This document shows, piece by piece, positions 4,803-52,592 of a stretch of DNA of 64,000 nucleotides (positions are counted from its first letter, which is position 1; every line of letters begins with the position of its first letter). The notes beneath the pieces are model-generated. The model saw only the letters and a program-made list of their open reading frames with translations. It searched no databases and was not told where the DNA came from. Source of the DNA: Isoetes taiwanensis (lineage: Eukaryota; Streptophyta; Lycopodiopsida; Isoetales; Isoetaceae); the NCBI GenBank assembly GCA_021234155.1, contig JAJEKV010000011.1, positions 13,493,255 to 13,557,254 on the forward strand, read 5' to 3'. The translations under genes were made by a program, and so were the position numbers.

Positions 4803-6899
4803 CTATGAGATCCTTATGCTCAATAACCAAATCATCGGCCAGAAATGAACATCCTCACACACTCGAAAGAGTGGCTCCCGCACAGTGACCATAGACCGCC
4901 CGAAAAGGGTCATCTTAATGGTAGACCGATAGGTATTATTATACACAAATTCAGCAATAGGCAAAATCGCTCCCCAATGACCTTGATGTTCATTGACAAA
5001 CCCCCTTAAGATGGAACAAATAACTTTATTTACCACCTCGGATTGTCCATCAGTTTCTGGGTGAAACGCAGTAGAGAACCTTAACTCTGTCCCCAATTGC
5101 ATAAACAATGCCTTCCAGAATTTACTAGTAAACTTTGTATCACGATCAGATATAATAATCTTTGGCAACCCATGTAGCCTAAATATCTCCTTGATAAAGA
5201 GCGTAGCCGCACTATAAGCTGTCAACTTTTCCGAACAAGGAATAAAATGAGCGTGCTTAGTTAAACAATCAACAATTGTCCAAATGACATTGTTCTTGCG
5301 ATATCTGGGAGGAAGACCAACAATAAAATCCATAGTGATCTGTTCCCACTTTGCCTCAGGAATAGGCAAGGATAAAGGAACACCATGAGGTTTCTTGTTC
5401 GCTTTCTTTATCCGTTGACAAGTAACACAATGCCAAATATGAACCAAAACATCTCTCCGCAATCCAGGCCAAATAAAGTATGGTTCAAGCTTTGCCAAAG
5501 TTGCCCCCACACCACGATGACCCGCAGTAGGTGCATCATGAACTTCTTTAAGAATAAGTGACCGAAAATTCCGCACAATGCATAGCTTTGGACCTTTATA
5601 CAAGAACCCATTAACGATCTTATATCCATATGCATTGCCACTTTGAGCTAACAACCAAATATTCTTATAATCAGGGTCAGAGACATACAATGGTTTCATT
5701 CCCTCCAAATGGTTGGATTGTGCTATAGAAAGAGAACAAACTGCATAACGTCTACTTAAAGCATCAGCTACAACATTCTCTTTACCAGGACGATAATCCA
5801 CTGAGAAATCGTATTGCTGCATAAAAGCAACCCATTTCAACTGCCTTTCCGATAAGGTTTTCTGTGAAACAATGTGCCGAATGCTTTGGTGGTCAGTCAA
5901 AATATGAACTGAGGACCCTATAAGATAGTGTCGCCACACTTTCAAAGCATGAATGACAGCCAGAAATTCCTTATCATAAACACTATATCTACTTTCCGTG
6001 TCAGAAAACTTCCGACTTTCATAAGCAATAGGATGACCATCCTGCATCAAAACCGCGCCCAAAGCCACACCACTTGCATCAACACATAACAAGAAAGGTA
6101 AACCAAACTTTGGCAAACGCAGAACAGGAGGATTAACCATGGCATCCTTTAAAACTTGGAAAGCAAACTGATGAGTATGATTCCATTGGAAAGGAACATC
6201 TTTTCGTAGCAACAAATATAAATCTGAAGCTAAACGAGCAAAATTCTGTACAAACTTCCTATAATAACTGCATAAGCCCAAAAAGGAACGCAATGCAGCA
6301 ACTGAAGTAGGTACTGGCCAATCCACAATTGCTTGAACCTTACTAGGATCAACTTTAAGACCCTCAGCGCAAACAATATGACCCAAATATTCAATTTCCG
6401 ATTGGAAAAAGATACTTTTCTTAGGATTAAGAGTAAGAGACTCCTCCCTCAACCGACGGAAAACCTCCCGCAAATGCAAGTAATGGTCTTCCTCAGACTT
6501 ACTAAAAACTAATATGTCATCAAAGAACACGACAACATAAACGCCATGCACATCTTCAAATATTCGCCCCATTAGCCTCGCAAAAGAAGCTGGCGCATTT
6601 GTAAGTCCAAAGGGCATGACCAAAAACTCATAATGTCCAAAGGTTGTCCTAAACGCAGTCTTATGAACATCTTCAGGCGCAACCTTAAGTTGCCAATACC
6701 CTGACTTAAGATCAAGACGGCTAAAAACTGTGGCACCTTGGAGTTGATCAAACAAATCATCCGCCCTTGGTATAGGAAACCGATTCTTAATGGTTATCTT
6801 ATTCAAAGCGCGATAATCTATACACATGCGCCAGGAATTATCTTTTCTCTTAACCAACAAGACAGGAGCACCAAAAGGTGAAGAACTATGGCGGATCAA
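4803..6899 (-). pseudogene. Pol: reverse transcriptase, RNase H, integrase core
   Basis: A 698-codon open frame. Reverse transcriptase shows MPFGLTNAPASF and the YVVVFFDDILVFS catalytic motif. RNase H shows DASGVALGAVL, YDKEFLAVIHALKVW and LTDHQSIRH. Integrase shows an HHCC zinc domain (HDAPTAGH...CVTCQRIKK) followed by a DDE core with TMDFIVGLP, IISDRDTKFTSKFW and DGQSEVVNK. Its start follows a frameshift at about 6896-6905 that separates it from protease. The frame ends prematurely after the GPF-like SMVTVREPLF segment. The enzyme set copies element RNA into DNA and inserts it; here the domains are intact but not joined in one protein. Confidence 0.93.
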
Positions 6900-7510
6900 T
6901 CCAAATTTTGAAGCAACTCATCAAGCCGGGCCCTAATCTCAACTTGTTGGCCATGCATTCTCCGATAAGGAGCTTGATTAGGAGGTTCTTTCCCAGGAAG
7001 AAGATCAATCCTGTGGTCCTCCAAACGCTGGGGTGGTAAAGTTTGTGGAATTTCATTTGAAAAGACATCATCAAAATAATGCAAAAAACTTGTTTGACGC
7101 TCATTTAATGGGGATACATCTATCTTAGAACGCAAAACCACCAAATACACAAAATGAGTTTTCATTGCCAAACGTTTAAACTGTACAACAGAAACTGTGG
7201 GAATAGGGGAAACAATATCATCCTTCACAAACTTGAAGGTCTTTTTACCCCCTTCCAAGGATAACATAACAATACCCGCTTTCCAATCTATAAGAGGATT
7301 AATAGCCTTATGCCATGGCATGCCGAGAATAATATCCATACCTCCAAGGTCAGAGACCATGAAAGAACGTTTACAGATATATCCCTGCAATTGAAATTCA
7401 ACATCCTTGACCATAAATGAAGAAGGCGGAGGGGCAACATTCAAGAAAGCAGAAGATAATTCTACATCACTTGATAAAGGAATAGAAGTTAATTTTAGTT
7501 CTTTCACCAA
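6896..7510 (-). pseudogene. Aspartic protease region of Pol
   Basis: The frame contains LGGMDIILGMPWHKAINPLI, the second half of a retropepsin (hydrophobic-hydrophobic-GMPW), followed by the linker that normally precedes RT, ending EIRARLDELLQN. The DTG/DSG active-site segment should lie just upstream. Around 7510-7560 the sequence reads a DPGSEFD-like FLFDPGS frame in another phase, which fits a broken active-site loop. A shift near 6900 separates this from RT. Confidence 0.8.
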
Positions 7511-25597: not shown

Positions 25598-25948
25598 TTA
25601 GTGAAAAGATACAGAAATTATGACCACCATCACCCATATCATGAAAAAGAGTAGAAGTTTTGACAGCACCGAAATCCTTGAAAATCTTTCACGTCTAGCC
25701 ATGCCACAGTTTGCAAAAAGCTGATTGCACACTGGCTTAGTGGTTTTCTTACAGACTTCTATCTTTGCAGGGCTCCCCTCAGCAACTTTGATTATAACAT
25801 AAGGATCACTGGTGCCAGCAGCATCCTTGGCCGCAAGTTGAACACGTCTTGCCTTAAAAACTCTGACATAGAAATAAGACATTTTCTCACGCAAATCATA
25901 AGTCAAGTCTTTCTGCATCCTTGGCTTTAGCCGCTCCTTCATTTGCAT
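25598..25948 (-). pseudogene. C2-domain fragment, MCTP-like
   Basis: The frame contains TYDLREKMSYFYVRVFKAR, KDAAGTSDPYVIIKVAEG and KKTTKPVCNQLFA. This matches the opening of a C2 domain in plant MCTP/QUIRKY-type proteins (typically YDLVEQM..LYVRVVKA, DPYVEVK, KT..PVWNQ). Those proteins bind membranes and act at plasmodesmata and ER contacts. Only about one C2 domain is visible and the frame then fails, so it is a fragment. The Mutator-like element at 26109 begins 160 bp upstream on this strand, possibly inside former coding or 5' sequence of the same gene. Confidence 0.75.
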
Positions 25949-26108
25949 ACCAAATGTTAAATCGAAGCTCCCCTTTAATGCATGAAACCATATCCCCTTT
26001 TCCCAGAGAATGATTTATAACGGCTTTGCACCCGTACTGTAGATTTGGACCTGTAATGGGTCCACGGCCATGCTCGAAGGGTCCAGCAAAAACTCGACCT
26101 TCTTATTC

Positions 26109-26174
26109 GGAACAAAATATTTTTACCCCGGTTATTGTGATTCCTTCGCAAAATATTCCTTGCCGCAGAATCAC
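26109..26174 (+). repeat. Left terminal inverted repeat of the Mutator-like element
   Basis: Pairs with the complement of 37211-37275 with few mismatches. The outermost six bases (GGAACA against CGTCGA) do not match, so the exact tip is uncertain by a few bases. The placement is fixed mainly by the flanking 10 bp duplication. Confidence 0.88.
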
Positions 26175-27035
26175 CAGGCCGCAACCCCGTTATCCGTGCC
26201 GCCCCCGCTTTTCCGTGACTGCGGCGGTCGCTTTCAAGGGATATATACCTTCCGGTGGTATCACAGCGGTATTCTCCCTTGCGACGGAATCTCCCCCGAG
26301 TTATTCCACGAGACGGAATCACTACGCAAATGTATTCCTCCGGAAGGTATCACGAAGGACGTGATTATTCTGCCAGACGGAATCACAACCATGCTATTCC
26401 GCCAGATGGAATCTCGAGTGTCTGATTCCGTGAGATGGAATCACAACTTACGTATCCCGCCAGGTGGAATCACAACGTGACTATTCCACCGGATGGAATA
26501 ACGACCACGCGATTCACTCCTGTGGAATCACAAATGTCCGATTCTTCGAGACGGAATCACGACGAATATATTCCGCCAGATAGAATCACAACATCATGGC
26601 CATTCCGCCGGATGGAATCACGACCATGGATACAGCCCCGTGGAATCACAACTGCGCGATTCTTCGAGATGGAATCACGACGACTTCATTCCGCCCCGGT
26701 ATCACAACAAAAAGCTATTCCGTGAGACAGAATCACAATTTAGTGATTCCGTCGAATTGAATCAATCCGGAACGATTCTGCCGGATGGAATCAACCCTCC
26801 GTGATTCCGCCAGATGGAATCACTCCTCCATGATCCCGCAGGATAGAATCACTCCCCAGGTGATTCCGATACAGGTGATTCCGACACAGGTGATTCTGCA
26901 GGACGACAGGTGGATGCATCCGGTCCGTTCGCGGAAACCGGTTGACCGGACATTGTGGCGTGTCGTGGAGTTCGGGTCCTACCATGGACGTAAGTGTGCC
27001 GATTCCACCGGACGGAATCACCTGCGTGGAACTCC
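26175..27035. repeat. Palindromic site array A1 (left end)
   Basis: Some 25 or so spaced copies of a 22-23 bp near-palindrome, consensus ATTCC-GCCGGAT-GGAATCAC, separated by 8-12 variable bases. The right half GGAATCAC is the better conserved half here, mirrored at the other end of the element. The array lies just upstream of the transposase gene. Short frames rich in MESRRNH/WNH and GITT are translations of this repeat. Confidence 0.93.
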
Positions 27036-27563
27036 TCGATCACAGCGACCATGAGTCCTCAGCGGAGCTTGTCATGGACCTCGAAGAGAAGATTGAGGAG
27101 GCAAGTCGTGGAACACTTTCCGCCCATCTCTTTGTTGTGGCTAAGCTCTAATTACGCTTCTTGTGGCGGTGCAAGCGTAGATTTGGCAAACAAACCCCGC
27201 AGAAGGGCATTTTGACCACGATGGGGCTGCCCCGACGGTTCTAGAGCACCGTGGTCCCGATCCGATGGAGGAGGCACTCAATTGGTGTGGGTTTCCTATA
27301 TTCCCACCTCACGAGTCCCCGATTTCATTGTTTGGGAGCAAAAAATGGGATGCACCCCGCAACTTCTATATAAGAAGCTCTCAAATGAATAAGGGGCTAT
27401 CAAAACCAGGCAGCAGGACATATCTTTCTCTCAAAAGGTATGCGCTTCTTTAGTTTTGTAGATTACACATGGAAATTAAAGCATGGCTGATTCATCCTCA
27501 ATGGTGGAAAGCATGCAATCGGTGTAGTTTTGGGCCCCAAGACAATTCAGGAACACCCATGTT
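27036..27563. other. Leader region between array A1 and transposase
   Basis: A short frame reads ELLDHSDHESSAELVMDLEE up to about 27151 and could be a broken 5' exon. A possible TATA-like TTCTATATAAGAAG lies at 27364-27377. Otherwise I see no feature. Confidence 0.4.
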
Positions 27564-29838
27564 GTGGAAGATCGACCTCCCTCCTCCGGGGCAAAGGAGG
27601 AGGAGGGTTCAAAGGGGGAGAGTGTTAGAAGGGGATGCCAATGTCATTTCACTTTGAGACAACTCTACCTTCTTCCTAAAACCACTCAAATTACCTACCA
27701 CAAATGGGATCATGTGAACCAAAGAAGGTCAAATTTGCTACGGTAAAAGCTTTAGTCACGAGAAAGGATTGAGGTATAGGCTGGGTTCCGTGGCTCACTG
27801 GATGAAAAGAGAGAATGGATCAAACAAAAGCTATTGCATTACATTGCACCTAGAATGGTGATGAATATCCACCAAGAAAGAGTGAGCTTGAAGAAGGAAC
27901 TACTTGGTTTGGAGGGGCTTTCGAGAGATGACATGTTAAAGATGCATGAAATCTACAACATTGAAAAGGAAGTGACCCGAAATGTTTGGAAGTTGCATGA
28001 AGATGAAGCTACAAGCACTCATATGTGGGTGCAACAACACCTTGACAAAGGTATTCCATTATGAGCAAGGTGACATCTTCCAATTGGGGGTTATGACTCC
28101 CACCCAAAGAGGAGCCTTGTTGAGATTTGGAAAGGATAGGGCATTGTGTCTTGACTCCACCTACAAGACGAACGGGATGAGGTAGGGTTGCCCCTCTTGC
28201 ATTTCAATGCTCATATAAGACTTTAGCTTCCTTGCTAACATTCTTAAGTTGTGTTGCTACTTTACATTAAAGGTACTACCTCTTCACTATCATTGGATTC
28301 GATGAGTACTTCAATGGGATGCCTTTGGCTTGGATTATCACGAACTCCCAGAAGAAAGATGCAATTGCAAGATGGCTAGAAGCCATGAAAGTGTGGGTTG
28401 AACGCCATGACTCAACCTGGAAGCCCTCATGCTTTATCACCGATTCTTGTGATGCCGAAATACATGCAATTAAAAAGGTAACAATGTTTCCACTATGAGC
28501 AATTTTAAGTGGTTCATTTTGCACACTCTATGAGCATGTGGCATCTCTACACTTCAGGTTTACCCTAGCGTCGCTTTGAACCTTTGCATCCGCATGTGAG
28601 AAGAGACTGGTTGAAGTGGTTAGTCAAGAACGTGAAGAACAAGGAGATAAGGAACCAAATGTTTAAGGAATTGGGTGAGATCATGTATGGAATCAAGTGT
28701 CCCCTAGGTAACAATGACTATGGAGAGGATTACAATGAGGTCAAGTTAAAGTAGAAGCTTTGAGAAAGTTGGAAACCCCGAAGGAAAGTATCCTCAGTAT
28801 CCCAGATTGGCCTCCTACATGAGTCGTGAGTGGACTCGCAATATATGTGAATGGGTGTTGGCCACAAGAATGTTCCCCCATTCAAACCAAGAAACCAATG
28901 CTGCAATAGAGGGTTGGCACAAGATACTAAAGATGCGCCTGGGCATCTCCAAATCCTGTCTGAAGGGACGGAGGATGGACCGCTACTACATATGCTTGTC
29001 AATGAAGTTGAGGCACATACAACATACTCAAGGTAATTTGCAAAAGATAACGTGTTTTGTATACTTACGTGTGCACTAACACACCACGTTGTTTCATTTA
29101 CAAGCACACAGGGGGATGAAAGAGGCTGGTTTTGTCATAAACACATCACAAGAGAAAATTATAGAATCGGCTATTCGAGGGGCGAGGGATGATGATGCAC
29201 CTTTGTAGACCTCGAAGGAGGCGAGGCATATGTTCGTACTCTTGATCTCAACCGCCAACCGTATTTTTGTGAGTGGGGCACACAGAATTGGGCGAAGTTG
29301 TGATTGCCCATGGGGTGCCAAAGGTAACCTTTGCAAACACCAAGTTAAGGTTATCCAACTAATGGACAGTTACAGAGAGCAGGACATCTTGAAGGTTCTA
29401 GGTTCCGATTATGGAAATGCAAGTGGTGGCATGGAGCACTTGCGCCCTTGTACACCTGGGGTCCCCCCTGGAGATTCACTTGAAGAGATAGTTAGTCTAG
29501 AGGATGACACTCTCCCTATGAAGAAAGTTGGGTTGACCGTAGAGGAAGCTAGGGCCTCACTAGAATCGTGTGTTGTAAGGGTTATGGGACGGGCCTCCAA
29601 GGATCCCAGCCTCCTCATAGCCACAGAGGCGATGATGAGACAAGTCGACACCAGGCTTGAGAGGATGGACGAAGAGGATGGACCAGACACAACTATATCG
29701 TCTTTGTCAGTGCTGGAGGAAGAGGAGGCATATGGAACGAGCCTTGCAAGGATGAAGCCACTCTTGGAAATAGGGAAGAGGAGGCCAAAGGACAAGAAAC
29801 GGAGTTGGAAGGAAGTTGAGATGGAGAGCCTTGCTTAG
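27564..29838 (+). pseudogene. MULE transposase with DDE core and SWIM zinc finger
   Basis: The gene opens with a FAR1/WRKY-like zinc part (CQCHFTLRQLYLLP...KWDHVNQ). The catalytic core shows RALCLDSTYKTNGM (first Asp), then after an intron of about 28184-28271 YYLFTIIGFDEYFNG, PLAWIITNSQKKDAI and SCFITDSCDAEI (second Asp). After a second intron (about 28480-28557) come RRDWLKWLVKNV and NQETNAAIEGWHKILK (Glu region). A SWIM finger, CDCPWGAKGNLCKH (C-x-C-x8-C-x-H), follows near 29300-29345. A charged tail ends with TAG at 29838. Transposases of this kind cut and paste Mutator elements. Frameshifts near 28045 and 28580, one further downstream, and an in-frame TAG near 29206 inactivate it. Confidence 0.88.
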
Positions 29839-29894
29839 ATGGTTTGTAATATCTTGAGTTTTGCACAAATACTATGGTTTTTAATTTGATGAGT

Positions 29895-30535
29895 TTAGCA
29901 TATGTACAAAATACTATAAGTATAAATACTCTGTGTACAAGTACACAATGTATTAATACTCTATGTATAAGTACTATATTTTGTAAAACTACTCGTATAA
30001 ATACCATGCATACAAAATACTATAAGTATAAATACTCGGTGTACAAATACACAATGTATTAATACTCTATGTATAAGTACTGTAATTTGTAAAACTACTC
30101 GTATAAATACCATGTGTACAAAATACTATAAATATAAATACTCTGTGTACAAATACACAATGTATTAATACTCTATGTATAAGAACACTATTTTGTAAAA
30201 CTACACGTCTGTCCAATGTACAAAATACTATAAGTATAAATACTCTGTGTACAAATACACAATGTATTAATACTCTATGTATAAGTACTTTATTTTGTAA
30301 AACTACTCGTATAAATACCATGCGTACAAAATACTATAAGTATAAATACTCGGTGTATAAATACGCAATATATTAATACTCTATGTTTAAGTACTGTAAT
30401 TTGTAAAACTACTCGTATAAATACCATGTGTACAAAATACTATAAATATAAATACAATGTGTACAAATACACAATGTATTAATACTCTATGTATAAGAAC
30501 TCTATTTTGTAAAACTACACGTCTGTCCAATGGTC
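29895..30535. repeat. AT-rich ~105 bp tandem array, after the transposase
   Basis: About six units sharing TACAAAATACTATAAGTA, ACACAATGTATTAATACTC and TGTAAAACTACTCGTATAA. The word ACAAAATACTATAA recurs roughly every 105 bp from 29907 to 30432. It lies directly behind the transposase stop codon and before palindrome array A2. Repeated MVFIRVVLQN-type frames on the minus strand are only shadows of it. Confidence 0.9.
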
Positions 30536-30559
30536 GAAATAAATCCCTAAAGTCGTCAA

Positions 30560-30760
30560 CTGTCCGGTGGAATCACCAATTGGTGATTCCACCGGATGGA
30601 AACGCCTCCGCCATCATTGCATGCCGCAGGCAATGATGCTCCTTCAAGTCAGATGTCAAGTCAGTTGTCTGCCATTATGAAGGACGGCTAACTGACGTAC
30701 GCAATGTGTGGTGATTCCACTGAACAGAATCACAGGTGGTGATTCCACCCCACAGAATCA
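30560..30760. repeat. Palindromic site array A2
   Basis: A short array with the words GGTGGAATCACCAATTGGTG, ATTCCACCGGATGGAA, GTGATTCCACTGAACAGAAT and GGTGATTCCACCCCACAGAA. It sits about 100 bp upstream of the small gene starting at 30858. Confidence 0.85.
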
Positions 30761-30857
30761 ACCTTGGGCATCGGACCAGCACCATCCTCTTAGTATTCAC
30801 TCATAATTCTCTGGAAGACGCTCCGGTGAGGCGCTTCGATCTTCGTCTGTTCCAGTT

Positions 30858-31390
30858 ATGGCCGACTGCCCCCCAGTAGCCATACTCAACGGGGTCCTAG
30901 TGGTGGACCTCGGTTTTCTGGAGGCCCTCAAAGATTGCAGGCTCGAGAATCTGCATTAGCGCCTCCGGGGTCGAGCATTGGTAGACGTCCTGCCCATTCC
31001 TATCGCCATACCTTCGGGACAGGGTTGTGAATGCATCAGGATTCCTGTGAAGGTTTCCAACGCTTTCACATCCCCGGGCGAGACGCTTTAATGAAGAGTG
31101 GGCAAAGAATCATTTTGCCTACGCTACGGAATTGCCGAAGGAAGAATCTGGCCGGTTCAAAGCCGCTGAAGGTGGAGTGCAAGGATGAGCCGATGATCGG
31201 TGAGTTTGCTTTCCCTGCCCCTCCGCAAGGAGAGACAAGTTTTGGGAGGGTTGACTGGTCTACCAACAAGGTGTGAGTTCATACACTGCTGTTCATTTGA
31301 TGTTCTGTATTGTCGCTGCAACTAATGTTCTTTATTGCTGCTGCATGAACTACGCAGAAAAAACGAGCCCGCCCCAGTTATAGTGCATAG
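30858..31390 (+). pseudogene. Small unknown gene, copy a
   Basis: Starts MADCPPVAILNGVLVVDLGF and is clearly related to copy b on the opposite strand at 32956. Shared words are MADCPP, a VDLGF/IDLRF segment, LEALKDCRLENL against FHSCRLESL, IPIAIPSGQGCECIRIPVKV against VSVAIPRQEGCDCVRVPLRK, and WAKN(H/L)FA. A last exon appears joined across a GT..AG intron (about 31270-31357), adding a basic tail KKRARPSYSA. Two stops (near 30952 and 31088) and frame changes break it. I do not recognise the family. Paired Cys (CEC) and a basic tail would suit a small nuclear protein, but that is inference. Confidence 0.6.
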
Positions 31391-31734
31391 CTCGCGACTA
31401 TCAATGATGGAGAACGGTCCTTTTTTTGGTTTCTGTTCAGACAGTTCTGTTGATTTTTGATTTCCTGGTAGCTACCTTGCGTTGCACGCCTTCTTGTGAA
31501 AATACAGATTTAAGTTAATTGATGTGCAATCTCTTCAGTTGGCTTCAAATTCTATGCATATTGTGAATGTACATATTGTAATTTTTGATGAGTTTTGCAC
31601 AATATGAGTTTCTGATATGATATGTTTTGCATAGATACTCAATGTACAGAATCTAAGGTTGAAGATGAATACTCAATGAAGATGTGTATAGATACCCTGT
31701 TATGGCAGTATTTATGTGAATGGTGGTAAATAAA

Positions 31735-32255
31735 AACTCGACGTATAAATACTCTGCAAAATACTATACGTATACATACTATGAGTAGAAACACACAATC
31801 TGCAAATTACTATAGGTTTGAATACTATCTGTATAAAATACTAAACGTATAAATACCATGTGTAGAAAATATCGTAAGTATAAATACTGTGTATAAATAC
31901 CATGTGTAGAAATACTCTGTGTATAAATCTGCAAATTACTATAGGTTTGAATACTATCTGTATAAAATACTAAACGTATAAATACCATGTGTAGAAAATA
32001 CCGTGAGTATAAATACTCTGTGTATAAATACCATGTGTAGAAAATACCGTAAGTATAAATACTCTGTGTATAAATACCATGTGTAGAAATACTCTGTGTA
32101 TAAATCTGCAAATTACTATAGGTTTAAATACCATGTGTAGCAAATACCACAAGTATAAATACTCTGTGTAAAAAAACTTAATATATTAATACTCTGTGTA
32201 GAAGTACTCGAAGCATGCAGACAATACTCTATGTATAATACTTGAAGTATAAATA
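31735..32255. repeat. AT-rich tandem array between the convergent small genes
   Basis: Tandem units share GTATAAATACCATGTGTAGA, AAATACCGTAAGTATAAATA and CTCTGTGTATAAA, with longer blocks of about 120 bp repeated. It is similar in composition and in the words TATAAATACTCTGTG to 29895-30535. It lies at the shared 3' side of the two inverted small genes. Confidence 0.88.
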
Positions 32256-32449
32256 CTCCCATGTATATCACGTTTATACTGCGTATGGAATCACGTTTAA
32301 TCCTGCGTATGGAATCACAAAAAGAAGCCATAATCTCGAAGCGTCGCACCAAAAAAAAACAGCAGTGTTTAACGGACAGGGTTTAACAGCGAATCTCAGA
32401 CATGTATGGATGCTCAAAAGGAAACTGCCAAAAAGACGGCAGTGTCCGC

Positions 32450-32956
32450 TTCATTCGTTATCAGCAGCTAGCCTGTGGAGGTGTGGGAACGCTTCCTCTG
32501 GATCAAACATGCAATTAGTTACATCCAGCAAAAAAGAAAAATCGTGAAGCAAGAGGCGCAGATGGCTGACCTTGACGCTGGTCCAGTTAGTTCGGCCGGT
32601 TGATGGGTCTTTGTAGCAGGCAACGGGAAACACGAAGTACGCTTACCAGTTGAATGAAGAAATGCAAACAAATTCTTGGCCCAATCACCATCACATTCTT
32701 CGTGACCAGGAATTCTGGAACCCCTAGAAACTTTAACTCGAATTTTCGAGCCATTGGATTTCCTCAAAGGCACCCTCACGCAATCGCAGCCCTCTTGCCT
32801 CGGTATGGCGACGGAAACCGGCGGGACCTCTTGCAGCGACCGACTTCGAAGACGATCCTGCAGGCTCTCGAGCCTGCAGCTGTGGAAATTATCCAAGAAA
32901 CGAAGATCAATCATGAGAAACCCGTCCTCTATAACAATTGGCGGACAGTCCGCCAT
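32450..32956 (-). pseudogene. Small unknown gene, copy b (inverted)
   Basis: An ATG frame from 32956 reads MADCPPIVIEDGFLMIDLRF, then FLDNFHSCRLESLQDRL, VSVAIPRQEGCDCVRV and DWAKNLFAFLHSTG. The first ~100 codons are open, unlike copy a. Homology to copy a continues after a frame change as FVFPVACYKDPSTGRTNW, then TSVK followed by a GT donor at the same place as in copy a (DWSTNK|GT). The frame change or a missed intron (GTAAGC near 32645) leaves its state uncertain. Unknown family; it faces copy a across the AT-rich array. Confidence 0.6.
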
Positions 32957-33189
32957 TCCTACAAGCCGGCAACTGATGTTAGAGCAGGCGAAGAGCAGAC
33001 AAAGAAATTCCTTACCGAACCACAGGAAAGAAGCAGAAATTCCTTACCGAACCACAGGAAACCACAGGAACTATCGCAAGGATATGGCGCCTAACAATCG
33101 GATCGAAGCGCCAGAGCTGGAGCTAAGCACCAAAACCAAAACATATGATTGAATTGGAAGCGCCAGAAGCTTGTCCGTCGGGGCTCTGA

Positions 33190-33455
33190 GAAATTCCCCC
33201 CGACGGAATCACCGACTAGGCTAAATTCGCTTTCAGTCTAGGGGCCAACGTGGCACCCAGACATTCGTCGACGTCGCGTCACTTCAGTTTGGCACGAATC
33301 CATGCAGTGAAGTACTAAATTCGCTGTCAGTGTAGGGGCCAACGTGGCACCCTGGCATTCGTGAACGTCGCGTCAGCTCAGTGTGGCACAAATCCTAGTA
33401 GTAAGGGCTATAGATGGCGGCGGCTTGGTATTTATTACGTACGTCGCTCCACGTC
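33190..33455. repeat. 94 bp tandem duplication upstream of small gene b
   Basis: A unit beginning AAATTCGCT and containing AGGGGCCAACGTGGCACCC and CGTCGCGTCA starts near 33223 and again near 33317. One palindromic site (CCCGACGGAATCACCGAC) precedes it. No coding content. Confidence 0.75.
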
Positions 33456-33695
33456 ACCGACTTGTGATTCCACGGAAAGGAATAACGCAAATGTGATTCC
33501 ACGGTATGGAATAACATACGAGTGATTCCACGGAGTTGAATCACGAAAGTGTGATTCTACGGAATGGACTCACCATGGTGTTGTGATTCCACGGTTTGGA
33601 ATCACCGTGGGGGTGATTCCACGGAGTTGAATCACGAAAGTGTGATTCCACGGAATGGAATCACCGTGATGTGATTCCGCGGAGAGGAATCGAGC
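33455..33695. repeat. Palindromic site array A3
   Basis: Eight or so units of ~30 bp in the form GTGATTCCA-CGGNA-TGGAATCAC, the most regular of the four arrays. Both half-sites are well kept here. It is 5' of small gene b (start 32956) and just beyond the 3' end of the Ulp1 gene. Confidence 0.93.
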
Positions 33696-33846
33696 ATGCA
33701 ACTCAAATTCAAATTCAAAAAAGTTCCCGCTCCAAAATCTTTCAATTTCAAATTCAAAAAACTTCATCAGATCATATACAGTGGTATGGGAATTAAAACC
33801 AGCAAAGCTGGGAATTTTCGTTCTTTGTTCAATAGCAAGGTTGAAA

Positions 33847-36261
33847 TCATGGGCCATTTTTCCTCAGACGGGTAACCAAGCCACCCTCCTCGGTCCAATC
33901 TCCCTGGGGTAGATGAAATGTGCTTTTCCTTTGCTGGACGCAGTCAAATAACTTCTGTAGCATGACAGCAAATGTCGACCTTGTCATGTCGATTTCCCTC
34001 CGCCCAAACCATTTGGATGTGTCAATGATCTGCAAGCAGTGCCAGAAGTTTAGAATGAAACATCACGAAATTAAGTAAAAATTGCATACATAACACTCAT
34101 AGAATGATCTTTCGAGTTGCAAATGTCCAGCAAGAACCTCTTCACAAAACAAATTGTGTATATCCCACAATCCTGGGTGTTCTCTTGCTGGGGCACATTC
34201 AAGGGGACACAGGGGGCATTGTGAAGGCTTGAGGATTCAAAATTCCATCTCTTCATAATGTCTGCTATGAAACTGCGCACAAACATAGCAATCAGGGAAG
34301 GCAAATTCGATAGGAAAGCTGTAAAATTCATCTTACATGGTCGCGAAAGATCTTAAATTGGAGTGCATGGGCCATTGAATCCGTGATGCGAAGACCACGG
34401 TGGCACGGGTTTGAAGCCTCCTGCTTGCCTCTTCGTTGGATACCAATATAAACAGGCTCCGGTGGTTGCCGCAAAACAAGTTTATGAAATCGAATTGCCT
34501 ACCCGTTAACTTCGAAATCGAATTGTATACCTGCCATAACCGGAAGTAGTAGAAACCGACATTTTGCATCCGCCAATTTCGCCTTTGCTAAAAGGTTTGG
34601 GTGGGATTAGATTACTAAAAATTTCATAGGCACCGACCGAACCCTCCAAAGAGTTTTGCAAGAAGAGGCCAAGGCGTCATGGGATGGATGAAAACATGCC
34701 GGCACCTCTTATTCGGGGGATGGCATGAATTAAGGCTCGTGAAGGGCATTCTACAGCCGATGAATGATATTGTCAAACCAAACGAAAAATCAGCTTTGAA
34801 CTTACGTAAGATAGGCACCAACGCATTCCTCGTTGATTCTGCAGTCCACATCGCCTTCTACACCGCACCGCCATGAAAACACGGGCAAAATTGGCATAGA
34901 TCCGAAATTCGATGTCACATTTTTCCCTACTCAATTGCCGTCTTTGCAGATTGTTAGTGGATACTTGAATGTAAAATTACAGGTCCAATTCCCGGAAACA
35001 AGGCCTGCTTTGGTAAGCAAAAACAGAATCAAAAATGTGGCCTCCAGGTCCTATGCATCATGGGAATGTCAATAATTGTCCCCTCCTCTTCCGACGGGCG
35101 GAGGAGGGCCGGAAGACCCTGCCGTTTGAATAGCATCGCTAACCCCAATGTAGCCGGGCGCCTCAAAACAATGTGATTAGGAGCTATGCAATCTTACGCT
35201 TTATTTGCACCCCTCTTTTTCCCAGGTGTTTTCGGCTTCCCTCACGACCGGGACCGGGAGCTTGCATGCTCTTTTGGGAGGGGGGGACGGAAATTCCCCC
35301 TCTGCTTGTGCAGCTTCCATACTGAAATCATCTCGGTCGACCTGTTCCTGCTCTCTAGCCAAAGACATGTCGGCCCTCAACTCTTCAACAGTAACATTGA
35401 ACCTTCTAGCAATGTTATTTCTTATTGCTGCCCTCTTCTGTTCCTCCAAACTCTCCTCCACCATCCGCCTTATCTCCACCTGCTGCATGACCCAAGCAGC
35501 CTTGTTTGCCGGTTTGAGAATCCCATGCTCTATTTGCTCCTCCCCGCCATGGCCGATACTGCGCCGCCCCTTGCCAAAATCCGTCTCAGATTGTGTTGCC
35601 ACAGGTAATCCTCATCTACACTCCGCTGCAGCTTCACCAATTCAAAATCCCTCTTCTTCTTCGCTAACTCAGGGGCATTGGGTTTCCTTCCCCGAATTGC
35701 TGCTGGCAGCTTGTAATCCCCGCTCATGTTGTGCTTGGCTAACCTGTGGATTTCCAAATCCCACTTCTTGGAGTAATTTCGATCACAGTTGTCGAATTGG
35801 CAGTACCACCGACCATCACCCGCATCGAATTTCCAGTTGGGAATATCTGCCATGTTTAAAGGATTCTCCTGGGGCGTTTTCCATGGCATCACCGCATAAA
35901 TCCAGTTAAGCACTCTATGTTTGGCTTCTCCGCATCTTTGCAATCAACATCCTCTTGAGGCACCTTTGAACGTACATTTCATGGGCATCCAACCCCCAAA
36001 TATTTGGAAAAAAAACGAGGAGCTTGAGCAATGAGCTTAGCACGCAACGTAATCCCGAGAATCCGGCTATGCTCCAAAACTCGCCGCTACCGCAAATGTC
36101 CCAAAACCATGAACTGCAAAAGCCTTACCGGGAGGGGAGTCCACCTCCGAATCAATAGGCTCTTCTTGCAAGGGATTGTTCACAGGGAACACAAAAGCCG
36201 AATTTGCATCGGATTCAACCTGGAAGTTCTCGCCCTGCGAGGTTTCAAGACTCTGCGCCAT
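33847..36261 (-). pseudogene. C2H2 zinc-finger and Ulp1-like (C48) protease gene
   Basis: Probable start at 36261 (MAQSLETSQGENFQVESD...). A central frame (35530-35943) has one C2H2 finger, WYCQFDNCDRNYSKKWDLEI with HRLAKH (C-x4-C-x12-H-x4-H). After a frame change near 35580 an acidic, charged segment follows (QVEIRRMVEESLEEQKRAAI). Further down, the C48 protease is recognised by FCGNHRSLFILV (His), DSMAHAL in a shifted frame (Asp) and PQQENTQDCGIYTICFVKRF (Gln and catalytic Cys) near 34150. The end, WFGRREIDMTRSTF, lies near 33990. Ulp1 enzymes cleave SUMO-like conjugates. Frameshifts and unmapped introns prevent a single reading frame. Its partner on the element is the transposase on the other strand. 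Confidence 0.75.
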
Positions 36262-36399
36262 CTGGAAACGGATTGAAGCGACAAAAACACAAGAACAGAC
36301 GCTAGCGGTGAACGGGGCGCCGAAGAACGGAGCGCGAATCGGAGCCGTGAGAAATCGTGATGTTGGACGCTAACTGAAAAGGGGGCGCCGCCGGAATGA

Positions 36400-37210
36400 A
36401 CCTCCGAGAAAACGAATGTTTCGAAAGAGAGAAAGGGAAATTTCGGGGTGATTCCTTCGGATGGGCGCAGTTCATGCAAGGGCTTGACGTGGAGGACGAT
36501 GATACACGGAGCCGGCTTCAATCATGACAAATGTCAGGGTACCGTGTACGGTGATAATTATGAGTCGCCAGAATTCAAAATATCCGTAGGACATAATTAA
36601 AATAGCCAAAATATCCACGACAAAATCGAAAGGTCGTGGATCGCCGCCCATTTGCAAATGATTCCGCCGAATGGAAAATCAAAAAAACTGATTCCGCCCC
36701 CGAATCTTCATGTCGTGATTCCACCCGAGTTGAATATCACGCAATGTGATTCCATCTAGCGTAATCGCTGCTCACGTGATTCCTTCGCTGGAATCGCAAT
36801 TTGGTGATTCCGCGTTGCATCCTACTACGGTTGATTCCGCCGACCGGGAATCAAAAACCGTGATTCCTTCTCCAGGAATCTCTATGTGGTGATTCCGCCA
36901 CGTTGGATAACACAGAATGTGATTCCATCTGGCAGGATCGCGTCATAGTGATTCCTTCTAGTGGAATCTGGATTTGGTTATTCCGCGGCGTGGTATCCTA
37001 AGGTCGTGATTCCTTCTAGTGGAATACAAGAGTTGTGATTCTATCCGAAGGTTTCTACCCGTGGTGATTCCGCCAGAAGGTTTCAGAATCGACGGGCCGA
37101 TATAGACCCGACCGACCGACGGGTGGGATGCGTCCGATGTTTGCGCACGTGGCGTTGTCGATTACGTACGGTTACGGGGTCGCCAGAACGGACCCCGTTT
37201 CGCCGGGCTC
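36400..37210. repeat. Palindromic site array A4 (right end)
   Basis: About 18-20 units at roughly 35-40 bp spacing, for example GTGATTCCTTCTAGTGGAAT, GTGATTCCATCTGGCAGGAT and GTGATTCCGCC. The left half GTGATTCC is the conserved half, the mirror image of array A1, so the arrays extend the terminal inverted repeats to roughly 0.9 kb. The Ulp1 gene starts at its inner edge. Confidence 0.92.
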
Positions 37211-37275
37211 GTGATTCTGCGTCAAGGAATATCTTGCGATGGAATCACAATAACCGGGGTAAAAATATTTCGACG
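37211..37275 (-). repeat. Right terminal inverted repeat of the Mutator-like element
   Basis: Complement of 26109-26174, beginning GTGATTCTGCGTCAAGGAAT and ending GGGGTAAAAATATTT plus CGACG. It is followed by the 10 bp target duplication CTTCTTATTC at 37276-37285. Confidence 0.88.
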
Positions 37276-37285
37276 CTTCTTATTC

Positions 37286-47028: not shown

Positions 47029-49454
47029 ATGGCTCCTGCCAGACAGGCTGATGGGGGATCGATTGAGCCTCATGGCTTGGGGCTGAAGCCAAGGGGGATG
47101 GCGAGGAGGAAGAATCCTCCAGTAAAGGGGAAGGGCGCGGGTCTCGGCATGCATGAAGAGGCGCGGGCTGTAGGAAGTGCCATGCAATTGGTGGCAGAGA
47201 CGAGGGAGCTCTTGGAATCCCCTTCGGTTGAGAGGTATATGGATTGCTCTTCCTCTCAATATAATTCTGAGACCCCAGTAGATTGTGTTTTGGAGACTCC
47301 GGTCTTGATTCCATCAAGCATGCCCCCTTTGGAAACTGGATCTATGATGCCCTCTTCCCCTGTGCTTGGGAAGGGATCACTTGCTGGTGATGCGCCCTCT
47401 TCTAGGGTGCATGTAGCTGATGTGCCTCCTGGGGTGCCCTTGGATACCTCTCAGGGTGCCGGGTGGCAGCCCCCACTCCTGTGCACCCGGCCTGGCGGAG
47501 CAATGACACTGTTGCTCGCATCTCTCGGCCCATGGAATAAAATAACGGCTAAGGTTAGCCAAATGGCTATTTTGTAGCAGTTTTGCCAAGAAAAATGGCT
47601 AAAGTAAATTGAAAAAATGCCCAAAAAAAAAGAAAATTTTAGCTCAATTTTTTTGCCACCCAAGTGAGTTTTTAGGTTGAATAGCCAAACCTTTACCTCC
47701 AGACATATCCATCAGGACATCGATTAGCTAAACCTAAGATAGAGTGGCCTTGAAAAAATGGATAGATTAGCCCGAGATTCAGCATCAATGTATGTACTAA
47801 CTTTAAGAAATTTCAAATAGAGTTTATATTTTCCTTTTTTTTTCCACTTTCTTTCTTGTTCCAAGTACAAAGTTGAAGCATTACAGGAAAAGGAACAATA
47901 TAGTCCCTTTTTTTTAAGGTTTTGAACACGTTCAGGTATGGTTGTGTCTTGATTTATGTATTTACAATAAATTCAATGTCTTTGCCAAAATACTTGGATA
48001 TTTTACTAGTGTGATGGCTAATATTTGTCTTTCTATTTTGTGAAAGTTTAGCCAAAAGCAAGAAACTGTGATGGAGAGGAACCATTTAGTTTAGCCAAGT
48101 ATTAGAAACTTCTAGCCCCAATTTGAAGGTAGTTTAGCTAAACCTATTTTGGCTACACTAAAATATAGGAATAATAATTTATTCCATTCGGCCGGGGTTT
48201 TCAGATTGGATCAAGCGCAAGGCTCCGGAGTGTAGGACTGCCCGTGTTCAAGAGGCTCTGAAATTTGTGGAGGATCATCACTCTGTTGACCTGCAGGCAG
48301 CTCTTCCAGAGACTCCATGGATATATATTGATCATACCAGGCATGTTCAGACCATTGAGAATCTAGTTTCATTTGCGGTATTGGGCTACTTCACGGGTTA
48401 TATATTAGACACGAGGAGGTTTAGCTCTTGGCTTGCCGGACATCTGAGGCGGATTGGTTTGCTCAGGTATCAGTCTCTGAAATTCCTACCAAATAATTTC
48501 TTCATAATCATGTTTGAGGCTGAGTCTTCCGTGTGGCAATTGGTTAGGCGGGGGGTGGATACTTTGGGTGAATCTTATGTGTTGTATCAGTATTATACTC
48601 CGGCAATGTCCACCAGTTCTTTGACAGCGGTTAAAATCCTGTGTTGGTTCCAGATTCGGGATCTTCCCCCTGATCTGATGGTGCCTGATTTCTTGGTTTC
48701 TATGGTTAATGGCCTGGGTGTATATTTGGCTCATTCTATTGTGCAGGTCCCCAAGATCTGTGTTGCTCTGCCTGCTTTGCAGCCTGTGCCCACTTCTCTT
48801 CCAGTGCAGAGTGGTCCCTGGCATTTTCTCTTCCGATTGAAGCTTTTGAATGGCTCTGAGATCCGACAAATATTTCCATCTATTGTGCTACCATCTGACC
48901 TTGTTGATGATCCTGCTGGTGCTTGTGATGTGGTAGGGGTTGCGGGTGCTTATGCAGGGGCCCGGGATTCCTCTGTTCCCGAGGCAACAGGCAGAGGACT
49001 CCGTGGTGCAGTGAGTGGAGTTGGACGAGGTGGTGTGGTTGGGAGAGGTGGCGTGGGACGAGGCCGAAGCAGGCTTGCTGCTGGCCGCCCATTGGATGGC
49101 GGGGCTAGGGGACGTGGTGGTCCAGGGGAGGGCTCAGATGATTTGGTTGTGGCTAGGTCTGAGGACAGGGCTGTGGGAGGGGCTGGTGATCCTGTTGGGG
49201 ATGTCCCGGTAGCGGTATGTGCTAAGCATGAGGTGGTTGGAGCAGTTCGGTTGGAGGTAGAGACTAGTGTGGCCCATGACTCTATGGAGGTGCCTAGGGG
49301 ACTTCCAACACGTGTTGGAAGTGGAATGTCACGTAGAACGGTTGTGGGTCACTTTGATGTGATTAATCCTCTGGCTCTAGATGATGACTCTGTGGAGTTG
49401 GCTGATGGCCTGGTGGGTAGGCATGTGGGGCTTGACACTTCTCCCCTGGGATGA
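47029..49454 (+). pseudogene. LINE ORF1 (nucleic-acid binding), interrupted
   Basis: Begins MAPARQADGGSIEPHGLG with a basic part (MARRKNPPVKGKG). A frame change near 47480 leads to SNDTVARISRP, where another element is inserted (47531-48187). Beyond it the frame resumes (FSDWIKRKAPECRTARV, EDHHSVDLQAALPETPW) and runs through a DUF4283-like region to a Gly/Arg-rich tail (GRGGVGRGRSR). Plant L1 ORF1 proteins bind element RNA. The stop TGA at 49452-49454 overlaps the ORF2 start as ATGA. Confidence 0.8.
47531..48187. mobile_element. Nested 657 bp DNA element inside LINE ORF1
   Basis: Starts CATGGAATAAAATAACGGC and ends AATAATTTATTCCAT, so short inverted ends (ATGGAATAAA) are visible. A 6 bp direct repeat TCGGCC borders it at 47525-47530 and 48188-48193. 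Removing it with one TCGGCC rejoins ISRP to GFSDWIKRK in one frame, which proves it is an insertion. The interior has many TTAGC(C/T)AAA words and no coding capacity. Superfamily unclear; a 6 bp duplication is unusual. Confidence 0.8.
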
Positions 49455-52400
49455 ATAGGTCGATCCTCCGTTGGAATGTGCGGGGGGTGTGGTCAGTAGT
49501 AAGAGGGCCCGTGTTTCTTTGGCACTTCGGCAGTTGCGTCCTGATATTATTTGCATTCAGGAGCATAAGTGTCACAGGGGCGATATGTCTAGGCTCATGA
49601 ATATGGTTGGTAGGCAGTTTGCCTCTATTGCTTCTTCTTCTGGGCGGACTAGTGGGGGTACTCTTATTGCTTGGAGGATGGATGTGCAGGTCACGTACTC
49701 TGCAGCAGACAGGTTTGGTCGGTGGGCAATAATTAAGTGGTTGGAGGGAGGGCAAGAGTGGGGGATTGTTAATGTTTATGCCCCTAATCAGCCTTCTCAG
49801 CGGGGTGCTTTATGGGCCACAGTCCGGAATAAGTTGCGAGCCCTTGGTGGGTTGCAGGTCGCTTGGTTGCTGTTAGGGGACTTCAATATGGTAGAGCGAG
49901 TAGAGGATCGCTTTGGTTCTGGAACCCAGGTTGTGCATGGGTTTGAGAGGGACCAGTGCCTCGTTTGTTGCAGAATTTGGCCTTGGTTGAGGTCCCTGGG
50001 GACTTGTCTTTCACCTATTGTAATAGGCAGATTGGTGCGGGCCGGGCGTATGTTAGGCATGACCGATGCTATGCTTCCCCATGCGCACTGGATGGTGTGC
50101 CCTCTTTGCGCCGAAGTAACATTTTGTCTACCTCCATTTCTGATCATTACCCTCAGGTTTTGTCCAGTCAGGGTGCGGTTGCCTCTCGGCCCTCTAGGAC
50201 GGTGTTCCGTTTGAACACCTGGCTTCTGGCTGATGCGGATTTCTCGGCCCAGTGCCAGGAGTTGTGGCTTGATACCTTTTCATCTCTGAGGGGTATGTCT
50301 GGTATGATGACTGCGTTGGCCAGGGTGAAGCATTTTGCCAAGGTCTTTGGTAGGCAGCGTGTGAAGCAGGAGCGGTAGGAGTTGCATGGTCTATATCAGA
50401 AGTTGGAGAAGATTCGAGCGCAGCCTTCTGATGGCATTAGGGAGAATGCAGTGTTGCAGCGTATTGTTGCTCTGGAGCATGTTAAAGTGCAGGAGGCGTG
50501 TGTGAAGGCGGCCCTTACCTGGTTGAAGGAGGAGGACACAAGTTCGTCGGTGTTCTTCAGAGCAGCTAGGCAGCGACAATATGCAGCATCTATGGCGTCC
50601 CTTGCTTTTCCTGATGGCCGGACTTTGGAGGATTCCACTGATTTGCAGAGGTATGTGGATGCTCATTTCTCAGGGTTTTTCGCACAGCGCACTCTTCCCT
50701 ATGAGCAGGAGATGCAGGAGCTTGTTTTAGGGGCTGTTAAGCCATCTATTCTGCCTCACCAACGTGAGAGCTTGGAGCAGGAGCTTTCCAGAGAGGATTT
50801 AAAGGAGGCATGTATGTGTATGGCCAAGGATAAATGTCCTGGACTGGATGGCATTCCTGTGGAGTTCTTTCAGACTTATTGGGAGTGGGCTGGTGAGTTT
50901 ATGTACCAGGTGTATCTTGAGTTGCTACAGTCTTCTCAAATGGATAGGATCTTGAATACCGCATGCATTTCCTTGATACCTAAGGTTAAACAGCCTTCTA
51001 CTATTAATGATTGGAGGCCTATCTCTTTATTGTCCTCTGTGTATAAGATTATTGCGAAAGCCCTGGCAGAGGCAGAGAAGTTGAAGCCGGTGTTGACTTC
51101 TTCCATTAGTAAGGTGCAGTCTGGGTTTGTCCCTGGGAGGAACATTTTGACTAATGTTGCCGCAGCTTATGAGGGCCTTTATTGGGCCAGGAGAACAGGT
51201 CAAGGCATTGCCTATCTTAAGCTTGACTTTGCCAAAGCTTACGATAGTGTCCATTGGGAGTTCTTGTCTGCCATGATGTTAGCGTTGGGCTGTGGTCCAC
51301 GCTTTACAGAGACAGTCATGAAGTTGCATAGGTCAGCACGGGCTACGGTGGTGTGTCAGGGTGAACCCTCCACCTTTTTCTCCTTAGGCAGAGGGGTGCG
51401 TCAGGGGTGCCCTTTGGCGCCGTTTTTATTTACGATTGTGGCGGAAGCACTGTCTCAGTTGTTTTTTGCTGCAGTGGAGGAGGGGGTGGTGGATGGGCTT
51501 TGGATGCAGGATGGTAGCCAACAGATTATTAACCAGTTTGCTGATGACACTTTCCTCTTCTTGGTGGCAGAAGAGAGGAATTTGCAGAATGTGAAGGGTT
51601 TGCTGGATACTTTCTCCTTGGCCTCGGGCATTCTTCTGAATTGGGGTAAGTGCTCTGCATTATGGGCCCAGCTGACTCTGCCTCTCTTTTGTTTGGCTCT
51701 ATTCCCTTGGAAGGTACTTCCAGGTAATGTGTGTACTAAGCTGTTGGGTATTCCCTTTGGAGGGGATGTTTCCATGGGGAGGGTGTGGGATGAGATTTTG
51801 CAGGGGTTGCAGAAACACCTCAATTGGTGGAAGGGTAGCAAGTTGTCCATGGCAGGTAGAATCACTATTGCCAAGTCAGTACTTTGTAGCACTCATGTGT
51901 ATACAGCATCTGCGATGTTAACTCCTGAGGGTAAGATACGGGCTTTGGATAAGATTGTTCGAAATTTTGTGTGGGGCGGGGATGATGAAGGGGCAGTTGT
52001 TCAAGTGGCTTGGTGGAAGTGTCTCCGCCCCCGGGAGGATGGGGGCTTGGCCATTCTGGATTTGGCACTGCATAGTAAGGTGTTGGTCTCCAAGTTTGTT
52101 TGGAGCATTCTGCAGGATGGAGCATCTTCTCCTGGTGTGGCACTGTTGTTGCAGTCTCTTCGCCATTGTGTGGCATTTGGGCCGGGTGTGAGCCCTCTCT
52201 GCCGTTGTTGTGGCCTTCATCGTGAGACTGTGGAGCATTGTCTGGTTTTATGCCCTCACTTGCAGGCTGCCTGGGATTGGGTTAGGGCTCTGTTTCAGGT
52301 GAGATTGACTAGCCAGCAGTTGCTGCTTCATGTGTATCCTGGTGCTTGGCCGTTCTTACGGCAGCAAGCCTTGCATCTGTGCGTCGCTTGGTTGGTGTGG

Positions 52401-52592
52401 CTGATTTGGAAGTGGCGGCGGTTGTGGATCTTTCAGGGGATTCAGCAGCCTGCAGCCTCTCTGATTCCTCGACTCAGGTACAAGGTATTTCAAAGCTTTC
52501 TGATGTTCCCGGGATTAGTAGAGCGGAAGTTTGCCATTTGGCGGGACTTTTTGGGTGTTGTAGATGGTGATGGTCAGTTTGTACAGCAGTAG
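49451..52592 (+). pseudogene. LINE ORF2: endonuclease and reverse transcriptase
   Basis: ATG at 49451 overlaps the ORF1 stop (ATGA). The endonuclease shows ILRWNVRG, then after a frameshift near 49485 RPDIICIQEHK, IVNVYAPNQPS, WLLLGDFNMVE and, in another frame, STSISDHYPQ. An in-frame TAG at 50376 precedes a 736-codon frame. That frame holds reverse transcriptase: DKCPGLDGIPVEFFQ, NDWRPISLLSSVYKI, KLDFAKAYDSVHWEF, GVRQGCPLAPFLF and INQFADDTFLFL (F-A-D-D). A C-terminal zinc motif, CRCCGLHRETVEHCL, follows. Such proteins nick DNA and copy the LINE RNA on site. At least two frameshifts and one stop inactivate it. Confidence 0.93.

Follow-up and report, generated by a model that had tools for sequence, protein, structure and literature searches.

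The 64-kb stretch of the Isoetes taiwanensis genome analysed here (C919:13493255-13557254, hereafter the window) contains a complete Mutator-like element (MULE) of 11,168 bp, at 26109..37276 on the plus strand, which belongs to a many-copy family in this lycophyte. Alongside its transposase gene the element carries a gene that joins a putative C2H2 zinc finger to a SUMO-protease-like Ulp1 (C48) domain, an inverted pair of small genes that we call g3a and g3b, and arrays of short words placed before and behind these genes. That the element is as described here we regard as practically certain. The best explanation for the whole, which we hold tentatively and at somewhat less than an even chance, is a MULE family equipped with its own SUMO-protease anti-silencing module.

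The element and its copies

The genome (1,658,258,908 bases in 1110 contigs) was searched with parts of the element. A search with the left 302 bases, in which 40 of 558 first-look candidates were scored and the count is accordingly a lower bound, found at least 40 left ends including the window's own, at 86-100% identity. Sequences were fetched for 19 of the 39 others, these being the best-scoring ones minus one at a contig start, and a right end was sought within 14 kb in each of the 20 copies (19 fetched and the window). Both ends were visible in 16 copies (15 fetched and the window), and all 16 are flanked by perfect duplications of at least 9 bp; in the other four, c35 (3,997 N), c11, c37 and c41, no right end was found within 14 kb. 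The 16 copies set the borders of the element at GGAACAAA and CGACGC, and the ends of the window copy (GGAACAAA...TTCGACGC) are common to the 15 others; copies ending elsewhere were not seen.

Comparison of the copies also defines the target-site duplication, the 9-bp sequence TTCTTATTC at 26100..26108 and again at 37277..37285. The initial annotation had proposed a complete Mutator-like element at 26099..37285 with an exact 10-bp repeat at both borders. The element is indeed real, complete and present in many copies, and the repeat CTTCTTATTC is exact at 26099 and 37276, its sole two plus-strand sites in the window, with none on the minus strand; however, the element proper is 26109-37276 and the duplication is 9 bp, the tenth base being the element's own terminal C, a chance match to a flanking C. 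Likewise, where the copies give printed duplication matches of 10 or 11, the surplus bases belong to the element's ends. The terminal inverted repeats (TIRs), at first estimated at about 65 bp, lie at 26115..26181 (plus strand, with GTGATTCC and GAATCAC words) and 37204..37270 (minus strand); they are 67 nt long and 93% complementary. A duplication of 9 bp falls within the range of about 8-11 bp seen for MULEs, and the inverted ends are those of the TIR-MULE type. This is a many-copy Mutator-like family of the cut-and-paste type, and of the autonomous type by gene content only.

Two observations on single copies may be added. A second, diverged TIR-like end, AATCACCAAAACCAGGGTAAGGATATTT, lies behind copy c13 (L014 ~3867, position 13867), and is perhaps the end of a related family. 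Copy c33 (L033/L034) is only 7.9 kb long, an internal deletion having removed g3a together with most of g3b and with the AATACT arrays described below, and its 9-bp duplications are perfect; either it was deleted after insertion, or it was mobilised without the lost parts.

The transposase

The transposase gene (27483..29838, plus strand) has exons at 27483-28181, 28273-28477, 28558-29032 and 29112-29838 with GT-AG introns, these exon borders having been set by eye from the sequence; its frames are interrupted in the window copy. With a query joined from several frames, the MULE domain PF10551 matches at E 8e-18 (65.2 bits, cut-off 27.6); the SWIM domain PF04434 matches at E 4.6e-4 on a single open reading frame (20.1 bits against a cut-off of 19.6) and falls under that cut-off on the joined query (18.3 bits). 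The SWIM/DDE transposase that had been recognised from the letters alone is borne out by these matches, and the element has both the MULE-type DDE transposase domain and the SWIM-type zinc finger that is common, if not universal, among MULEs. In 19 copies (18 fetched and the window), the set used for all frame and motif tallies, the D, D, W-H and E blocks, which we take to be catalytic, are unbroken in 16, 15, 11 and 18, respectively.

MULE-like proteins related to the transposase are KI387_030975 of Taxus chinensis, 28% identical over 76% of the query, and R1sor_023720 of Riccia sorocarpa, 34% identical over 36% of it. Since relatives occur in yew and liverwort, sequence comparison points to a transposase belonging to a wider plant group, within which the family may be a new MULE lineage, as had been suggested.

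The protease gene and the g3 pair

The protease gene occupies 33847..36261 on the minus strand and encodes a C2H2 region, a charged linker and the Ulp1 domain. Its first exon is 34806-36261 and the later ones include 34097-34272 and 33847-34029, the exons between 34273 and 34805 not being settled; the gene is interrupted in the window copy. The C2H2 plus Ulp1-like gene of the initial annotation thus stands in its protease half, with Peptidase_C48 matching at E 4.1e-6 in the window and at E 3.4e-9 on joined pieces of other copies, whereas the C2H2 half is a weak match taken up below. The best solved relatives of the C48 domain are two chains of Sentrin-specific protease 7 (SENP7), at E 3.5e-5 and 5.1e-5, followed by Ulp2 at E 0.16; SENP7 and Ulp2 trim SUMO chains. 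Short His, Asp and Cys patterns, which we take to be typical of the C48 family, are unbroken in 9, 10 and 7 of the 19 copies; for the C2H2 pattern the number is 7. A protein search with the joined pieces of the window's protease gene matched none of 7163 candidates. Elsewhere in the genome, C1064:3773379-3774326 and C1058:6761188-6762135 are distant relatives of the C2H2-linker region, 38% identical, full length and stop-free, with no listed g3 or transposase near them; they represent either another family or host-domesticated genes.

The two inverted copies of a third gene noted at the outset proved to be g3a (30858..31390, plus strand; exons 30858-31270 and 31358-31390) and g3b (32468..32956, minus strand; exons 32571-32956 and 32468-32497), homologous two-exon genes arranged tail to tail, 55-58% identical in intact copies. 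Both have their intron at the same place and end in a short exon encoding a basic C-terminal tail, whose pattern is readable in 11 (g3a) and 15 (g3b) of the 19 copies. In the window copy the frame of g3a is broken and that of g3b has one frame-breaking indel. Neither has a Pfam match at E up to 10, in a search whose HMMER filters remove most weak matches. Between g3a and g3b the nonsynonymous distance (dN) is 0.35-0.39 and the synonymous distance (dS) 1.56-1.85, the latter near saturation, giving a dN/dS of about 0.2; the pair is therefore far older than the element copies and has been kept under constraint. By eye, both proteins have an acidic stretch ahead of F-A/V-F-P-V, presumably resembling a SUMO-interacting motif, and g3a also has a VKVE word which we assume to resemble a SUMO site. 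In sequence comparisons with solved structures, g3 drew three chains of Mediator subunit 18 at E 0.65-0.67, a likeness we do not believe.

Two kinds of site array

Dyad sites of the type GTGATTCC-N6-GGAATCAC stand upstream of each of the four genes, in most cases repeated every 29 bp, and also in the element's ends. One array with this period precedes the transposase gene (26280..27020), a short cluster of few words precedes g3a (30565..30760), further arrays precede g3b (33184..33690) and the protease gene (36447..37080), and two more dyad words stand at 32287 and 32311. The window element has 26 GTGATTCC and 18 GGAATCAC, against means of 0.25 and 0.28 and a maximum of 2 in 60 dinucleotide shuffles per word, so that the site arrays of the initial annotation are confirmed. 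The words are found in all 16 complete copies, with 20-33 GTGATTCC and 12-18 GGAATCAC per copy.

These sites admit another explanation, in which they are bound by the transposase or an accessory protein for end pairing and self-regulation, and the Ulp1 domain acts on the transposase complex, taking SUMO off the transposase or repair proteins, rather than on chromatin. The subterminal TnpA sites of En/Spm offer a parallel. Consistent with end pairing, GTGATTCC occurs in both inverted ends (at 26137 and, inverted, at 37241) and two of the four dyad arrays are subterminal; however, the sites upstream of g3a and the array upstream of g3b lie in the middle of the element, where no end pairing is needed. 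We consider this explanation rather unlikely.

The second kind of array consists of the word AATACT in one direction, behind the transposase gene (29904..30532, plus strand, 106-bp period) and again where the 3' ends of g3a and g3b face each other (31600..32280, plus strand). The window element has 35 of these words in one orientation against 2 in the opposite one, where shuffles give means of 3.0 and 2.7; in 15 of the 16 complete copies AATACT occurs 22-58 times and AGTATT 0-3 times, and in the sixteenth, c33, the arrays were lost along with g3a by the internal deletion. There is nearly an even chance that these arrays (the TATAAATACT word) are A+T-rich terminators or boundaries grown by replication slippage rather than sites for a protein of the element. 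They are found only at 3' gene ends (transposase, g3a and g3b) and their size varies among the copies as the word counts do, both of which favour this reading; against it, the word is conserved across copies and strictly one-way, although the latter argument is weak because tandem arrays are one-way by construction.

The module across the genome

The genome was also searched with three of the element's proteins: g3a (best 150 of 302 candidates scored; 160 matches, of which 150 are listed), the first exon of the transposase (best 150 of 1703) and the C2H2-linker region (best 123 of 1001; 135 rows forming 104 places). Because only the best candidates were scored, absences of the module are provisional, and the counts that follow are among the matches listed.

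The g3a matches are 40-100% identical, and their 150 rows merge to at least 134 places. They include 27 neighbouring pairs within 8 kb, 25 convergent (1.24-2.0 kb apart), two tandem and none divergent; copies of the window's own family account for many of them, and broken frames there can produce low identities. A g3 place lies within 9 kb of 17 of the 26 transposases at 88% identity or more, 25 of the 38 at 73-87%, none of the four at 63-72% and one of the 82 at 54-62%. Among the 25 g3-bearing transposases at 73-87%, 15 have one g3 only, on the opposite strand. They include open-framed transposases of about 80% identity accompanied by a g3 82-84% identical to g3a and a protease gene of about 70% (e.g., C1030:7623104, 7626381, 7628511), so that, as far as the sequences listed go, a sister group appears to keep the protease gene and one g3. 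For the protease gene itself, 62 of the 104 places have a g3 within 8 kb and 36 have a listed transposase within 13 kb (counted against 69 transposases, 67 out of the 68 with at least 63% identity and two at 54%). The transposase is opposite and downstream of the protease gene in 37 of 37 pairings, and g3 is downstream in 80 of 81. The internal genes were not seen as separate unrelated insertions; the module is coherent, with the protease gene and g3 beside, and partly opposite, the transposase, and with g3 doubled in inverted orientation in the window's branch.

The 54-62% transposases, which make up 82 of the 150 listed matches (e.g., C1025:18028950, C1072:3444125) and many of which have an open first exon, probably constitute a MULE family of very high abundance, perhaps a young one.

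State, age and selection of the copies

In 14 of the 19 fetched copies each of the four genes is represented by pieces, and their order is the same, as anticipated for a family with this gene set. In the remainder parts are missing: c11 is without the Ulp1 piece, c25 without g3b, c33 without g3a and most of g3b, c37 without the protease gene, and c35 shows the left end only. Coding distances among 18 copies are 1.6-11%, with a median of 5.6%. Relative to reference exons, the window's transposase has six frame-breaking indels in exon 1, three in exon 3 and two in exon 4; its g3a has three indels and a stop, its g3b one indel, and its protease gene ten indels and five stops in two long pieces of the first exon. 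Other copies are open in parts, with transposase exon 1 open in c11, c25 and c43, exon 4 in c13, c15, c19 and c33, g3a in c13, c25, c29 and c43, and g3b in c13, c23 and c41.

Some of these frame breaks may be assembly error. The assembly is described as made from nanopore reads (flow cell 9.4.1) and Illumina-polished (PMC8566536, in the passages cited here). Of the 66 distinct small deletions in the transposase region, 19 occur in more than one copy, and their carriers are often scattered, the recurrent deletions taking a mean of 2.7 steps for 3.4 carriers and informative substitutions 2.1 steps for 4.2 carriers. The recurrent scattered deletions are one-base deletions. Systematic nanopore base-calling error in methylated repeats may have produced some of them, in which case decay would be overstated and methylated copies perhaps marked; exchange between copies is another explanation. 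A CCWGG context was seen for 4 of the 19 recurrent and 6 of the 47 single deletions, against 1.9% of random places, numbers too few to rely on.

The ratio of nonsynonymous to synonymous changes (N/S), with all genes pooled, is 0.42 for changes found in at least three copies and 0.62 for those in single copies (Fisher p 0.022). By gene, where no ratio was tested singly, shared and single changes give 0.39 vs 0.96 for g3a, 0.30 vs 0.50 for the transposase and 0.31 vs 0.48 for g3b.

The Ulp1 domain and g3 might instead be captured passengers that hitch-hike with the element and contribute nothing to transposition. Plant MULEs do pick up fragments of genes, and in passages of PMC2528002 fragments of Ulp1 are met repeatedly in MULEs and CACTA elements of plants; the protease gene, moreover, has little constraint among copies and its frames are broken in those examined. 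Two results speak against this reading, namely the kept order and orientation of the protease gene and g3 in the open-framed sister group and the dN/dS of the g3 pair, and we consider it quite improbable.

Comparison with known systems

The closest published system is that of the eudicot VANDAL/KIU MULEs. In the cited passages, VANC proteins, binding to tandem motifs of non-coding DNA, erase silencing marks (PMC5735166, PMC10398659), and some VANC genes carry Ulp1, the KIU elements (PMC13317346). As these passages describe them, the VANDAL/KIU elements (Arabidopsis VANDAL with VANC, and the Kaonashi members) resemble the Isoetes element in combining a MULE transposase with an oppositely oriented gene that carries Ulp1, in containing several genes, and in having tandem arrays of short motifs in non-coding parts. 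The Isoetes element differs in its C2H2, which stands where those have DUF1985/DUF287, in its motifs, in carrying an additional gene as an inverted pair, and in its lycophyte host. A contrast in TIRs, which the Isoetes element possesses, is uncertain as the sources differ: VANDAL/KIU is called non-TIR in a passage of the review (PMC13317346), and VANDAL21 TIRs are named in the methods of PMC10398659. The same review, in the part cited, dates Ulp1 capture by non-TIR MULEs to the monocot-eudicot split and also mentions similar rice sequences (PMC13317346); the Isoetes case would be an independent or older capture. With moderate confidence, and by analogy of design, we suggest that the Isoetes family shares the VANDAL/KIU plan and would work like that system, but is not a member of it.

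As to the motifs themselves, the AATACT arrays (29904-30532, 31600-32280) contain the hexamer AGTATT of the VANC21 target YAGTATTAY. We rejected them as VANC21 sites, the full motif being absent and the likeness probably a coincidence in A+T-rich repeats. The element also lacks the published VANC6 motif AGTTGT[CA]C, which is not its array motif.

Other DNA transposons show single features. The CACTA-ULP elements of grapevine and rice have, in the passages cited, an Ulp1-like region within a DNA transposon (PMC2528002), but belong to the CACTA transposase superfamily. Spectre (arthropods) and Mutyl (ascomycetes) are MULEs with a C2H2 domain, Mutyl having an antisense second ORF, MutB; no Ulp1, g3 pair or site arrays are mentioned in the parts of that source cited here, and words starting with "ulp" are absent from its main text (PMC6446971). 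A limited search of open-licence literature found no paper on the Isoetes element, and the words "Mutator", "MULE" and "DNA transposon" are absent from the main text of the Isoetes genome paper (PMC8566536).

A possible anti-silencing module

The mechanism that we propose for the module is as follows. The SWIM/DDE transposase would cut at the inverted ends, and the element would carry its own chromatin module, in which the C2H2-Ulp1 protein, the small basic-tailed g3 proteins, or both, bind the dyad sites upstream of the four genes and in the ends. There the Ulp1 domain would strip SUMO from silencing or repair proteins gathered at these sites, which would keep the element's own promoters and ends accessible; downstream of the transposase and g3 genes, the one-way AATACT arrays could be a second binding site or a boundary. 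Such a module would act like the VANC/KIU anti-silencing of VANDAL elements, without family membership. An anti-silencing role for the extra genes is inferred from this analogy and is possible, though its probability is well short of even. The full form of the proposal, that a lycophyte MULE lineage independently evolved sequence-guided SUMO-protease anti-silencing, in which two kinds of array direct the C2H2-Ulp1 protein and a small, duplicated cofactor to the element's own promoters and ends, and so a second origin of the VANC/KIU function with SUMO removal in common, we consider unlikely.

Several results weigh against an anti-silencing module. The C2H2 match is weak, under the Pfam cut-off, at E 0.13 in the window and E 0.031 in another copy. 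The structure prediction for g3 has a mean pLDDT (predicted local distance difference test) of 35.1, unusable for fold searches, and DNA binding by the g3 proteins is a guess since their fold could not be modelled. DUF1985 has no match at E up to 10 in g3a, g3b or the protease-gene pieces, again with HMMER filters that remove most weak matches, and the VANC21 motif is absent from both strands of the element. No copy among the 19, as assembled, has all four of its transposase exons open, nor does any have both long first-exon pieces of the protease gene open. The evidence for selection across copies is modest, and for the protease gene, again not tested alone, the difference in N/S is small (0.60 vs 0.72). 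Finally, in the 54-62% group no protease-gene place is listed within 20 kb of any of the 82 listed transposases, and a g3 lies near one of them; as far as the scored matches show, a related MULE spreads without the module.

Ulp1 together with a different putative DNA-binding partner, the C2H2, and with other motifs, in a lycophyte, would represent a case that is either independent or much older. Should the protein be aimed at the arrays, comparison with VANDAL/KIU would isolate SUMO removal at arrayed sites and make it testable. Natural comparisons are at hand in the same genome among the listed matches: the sister group with one g3, and the 54-62% group, where no part of the module was found apart from a single g3 near one of the 82 transposases.

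Other features of the window

About 95 bases from the insertion site, an open reading frame on the minus strand (25601-26014) has a C2 domain (E 4e-5). We take it to be part of a multiple-C2 gene, and the element may therefore sit in or beside a host gene. Further away, 4806-6917 on the minus strand, perhaps continuing to 7528, encodes a Gypsy-type polyprotein with reverse transcriptase, RNase H and integrase domains (domain scan of 4806-6917), and 48162-52589 on the plus strand holds open reading frames resembling those of long interspersed nuclear elements (LINE-like), with DUF4283, endonuclease and reverse transcriptase domains.

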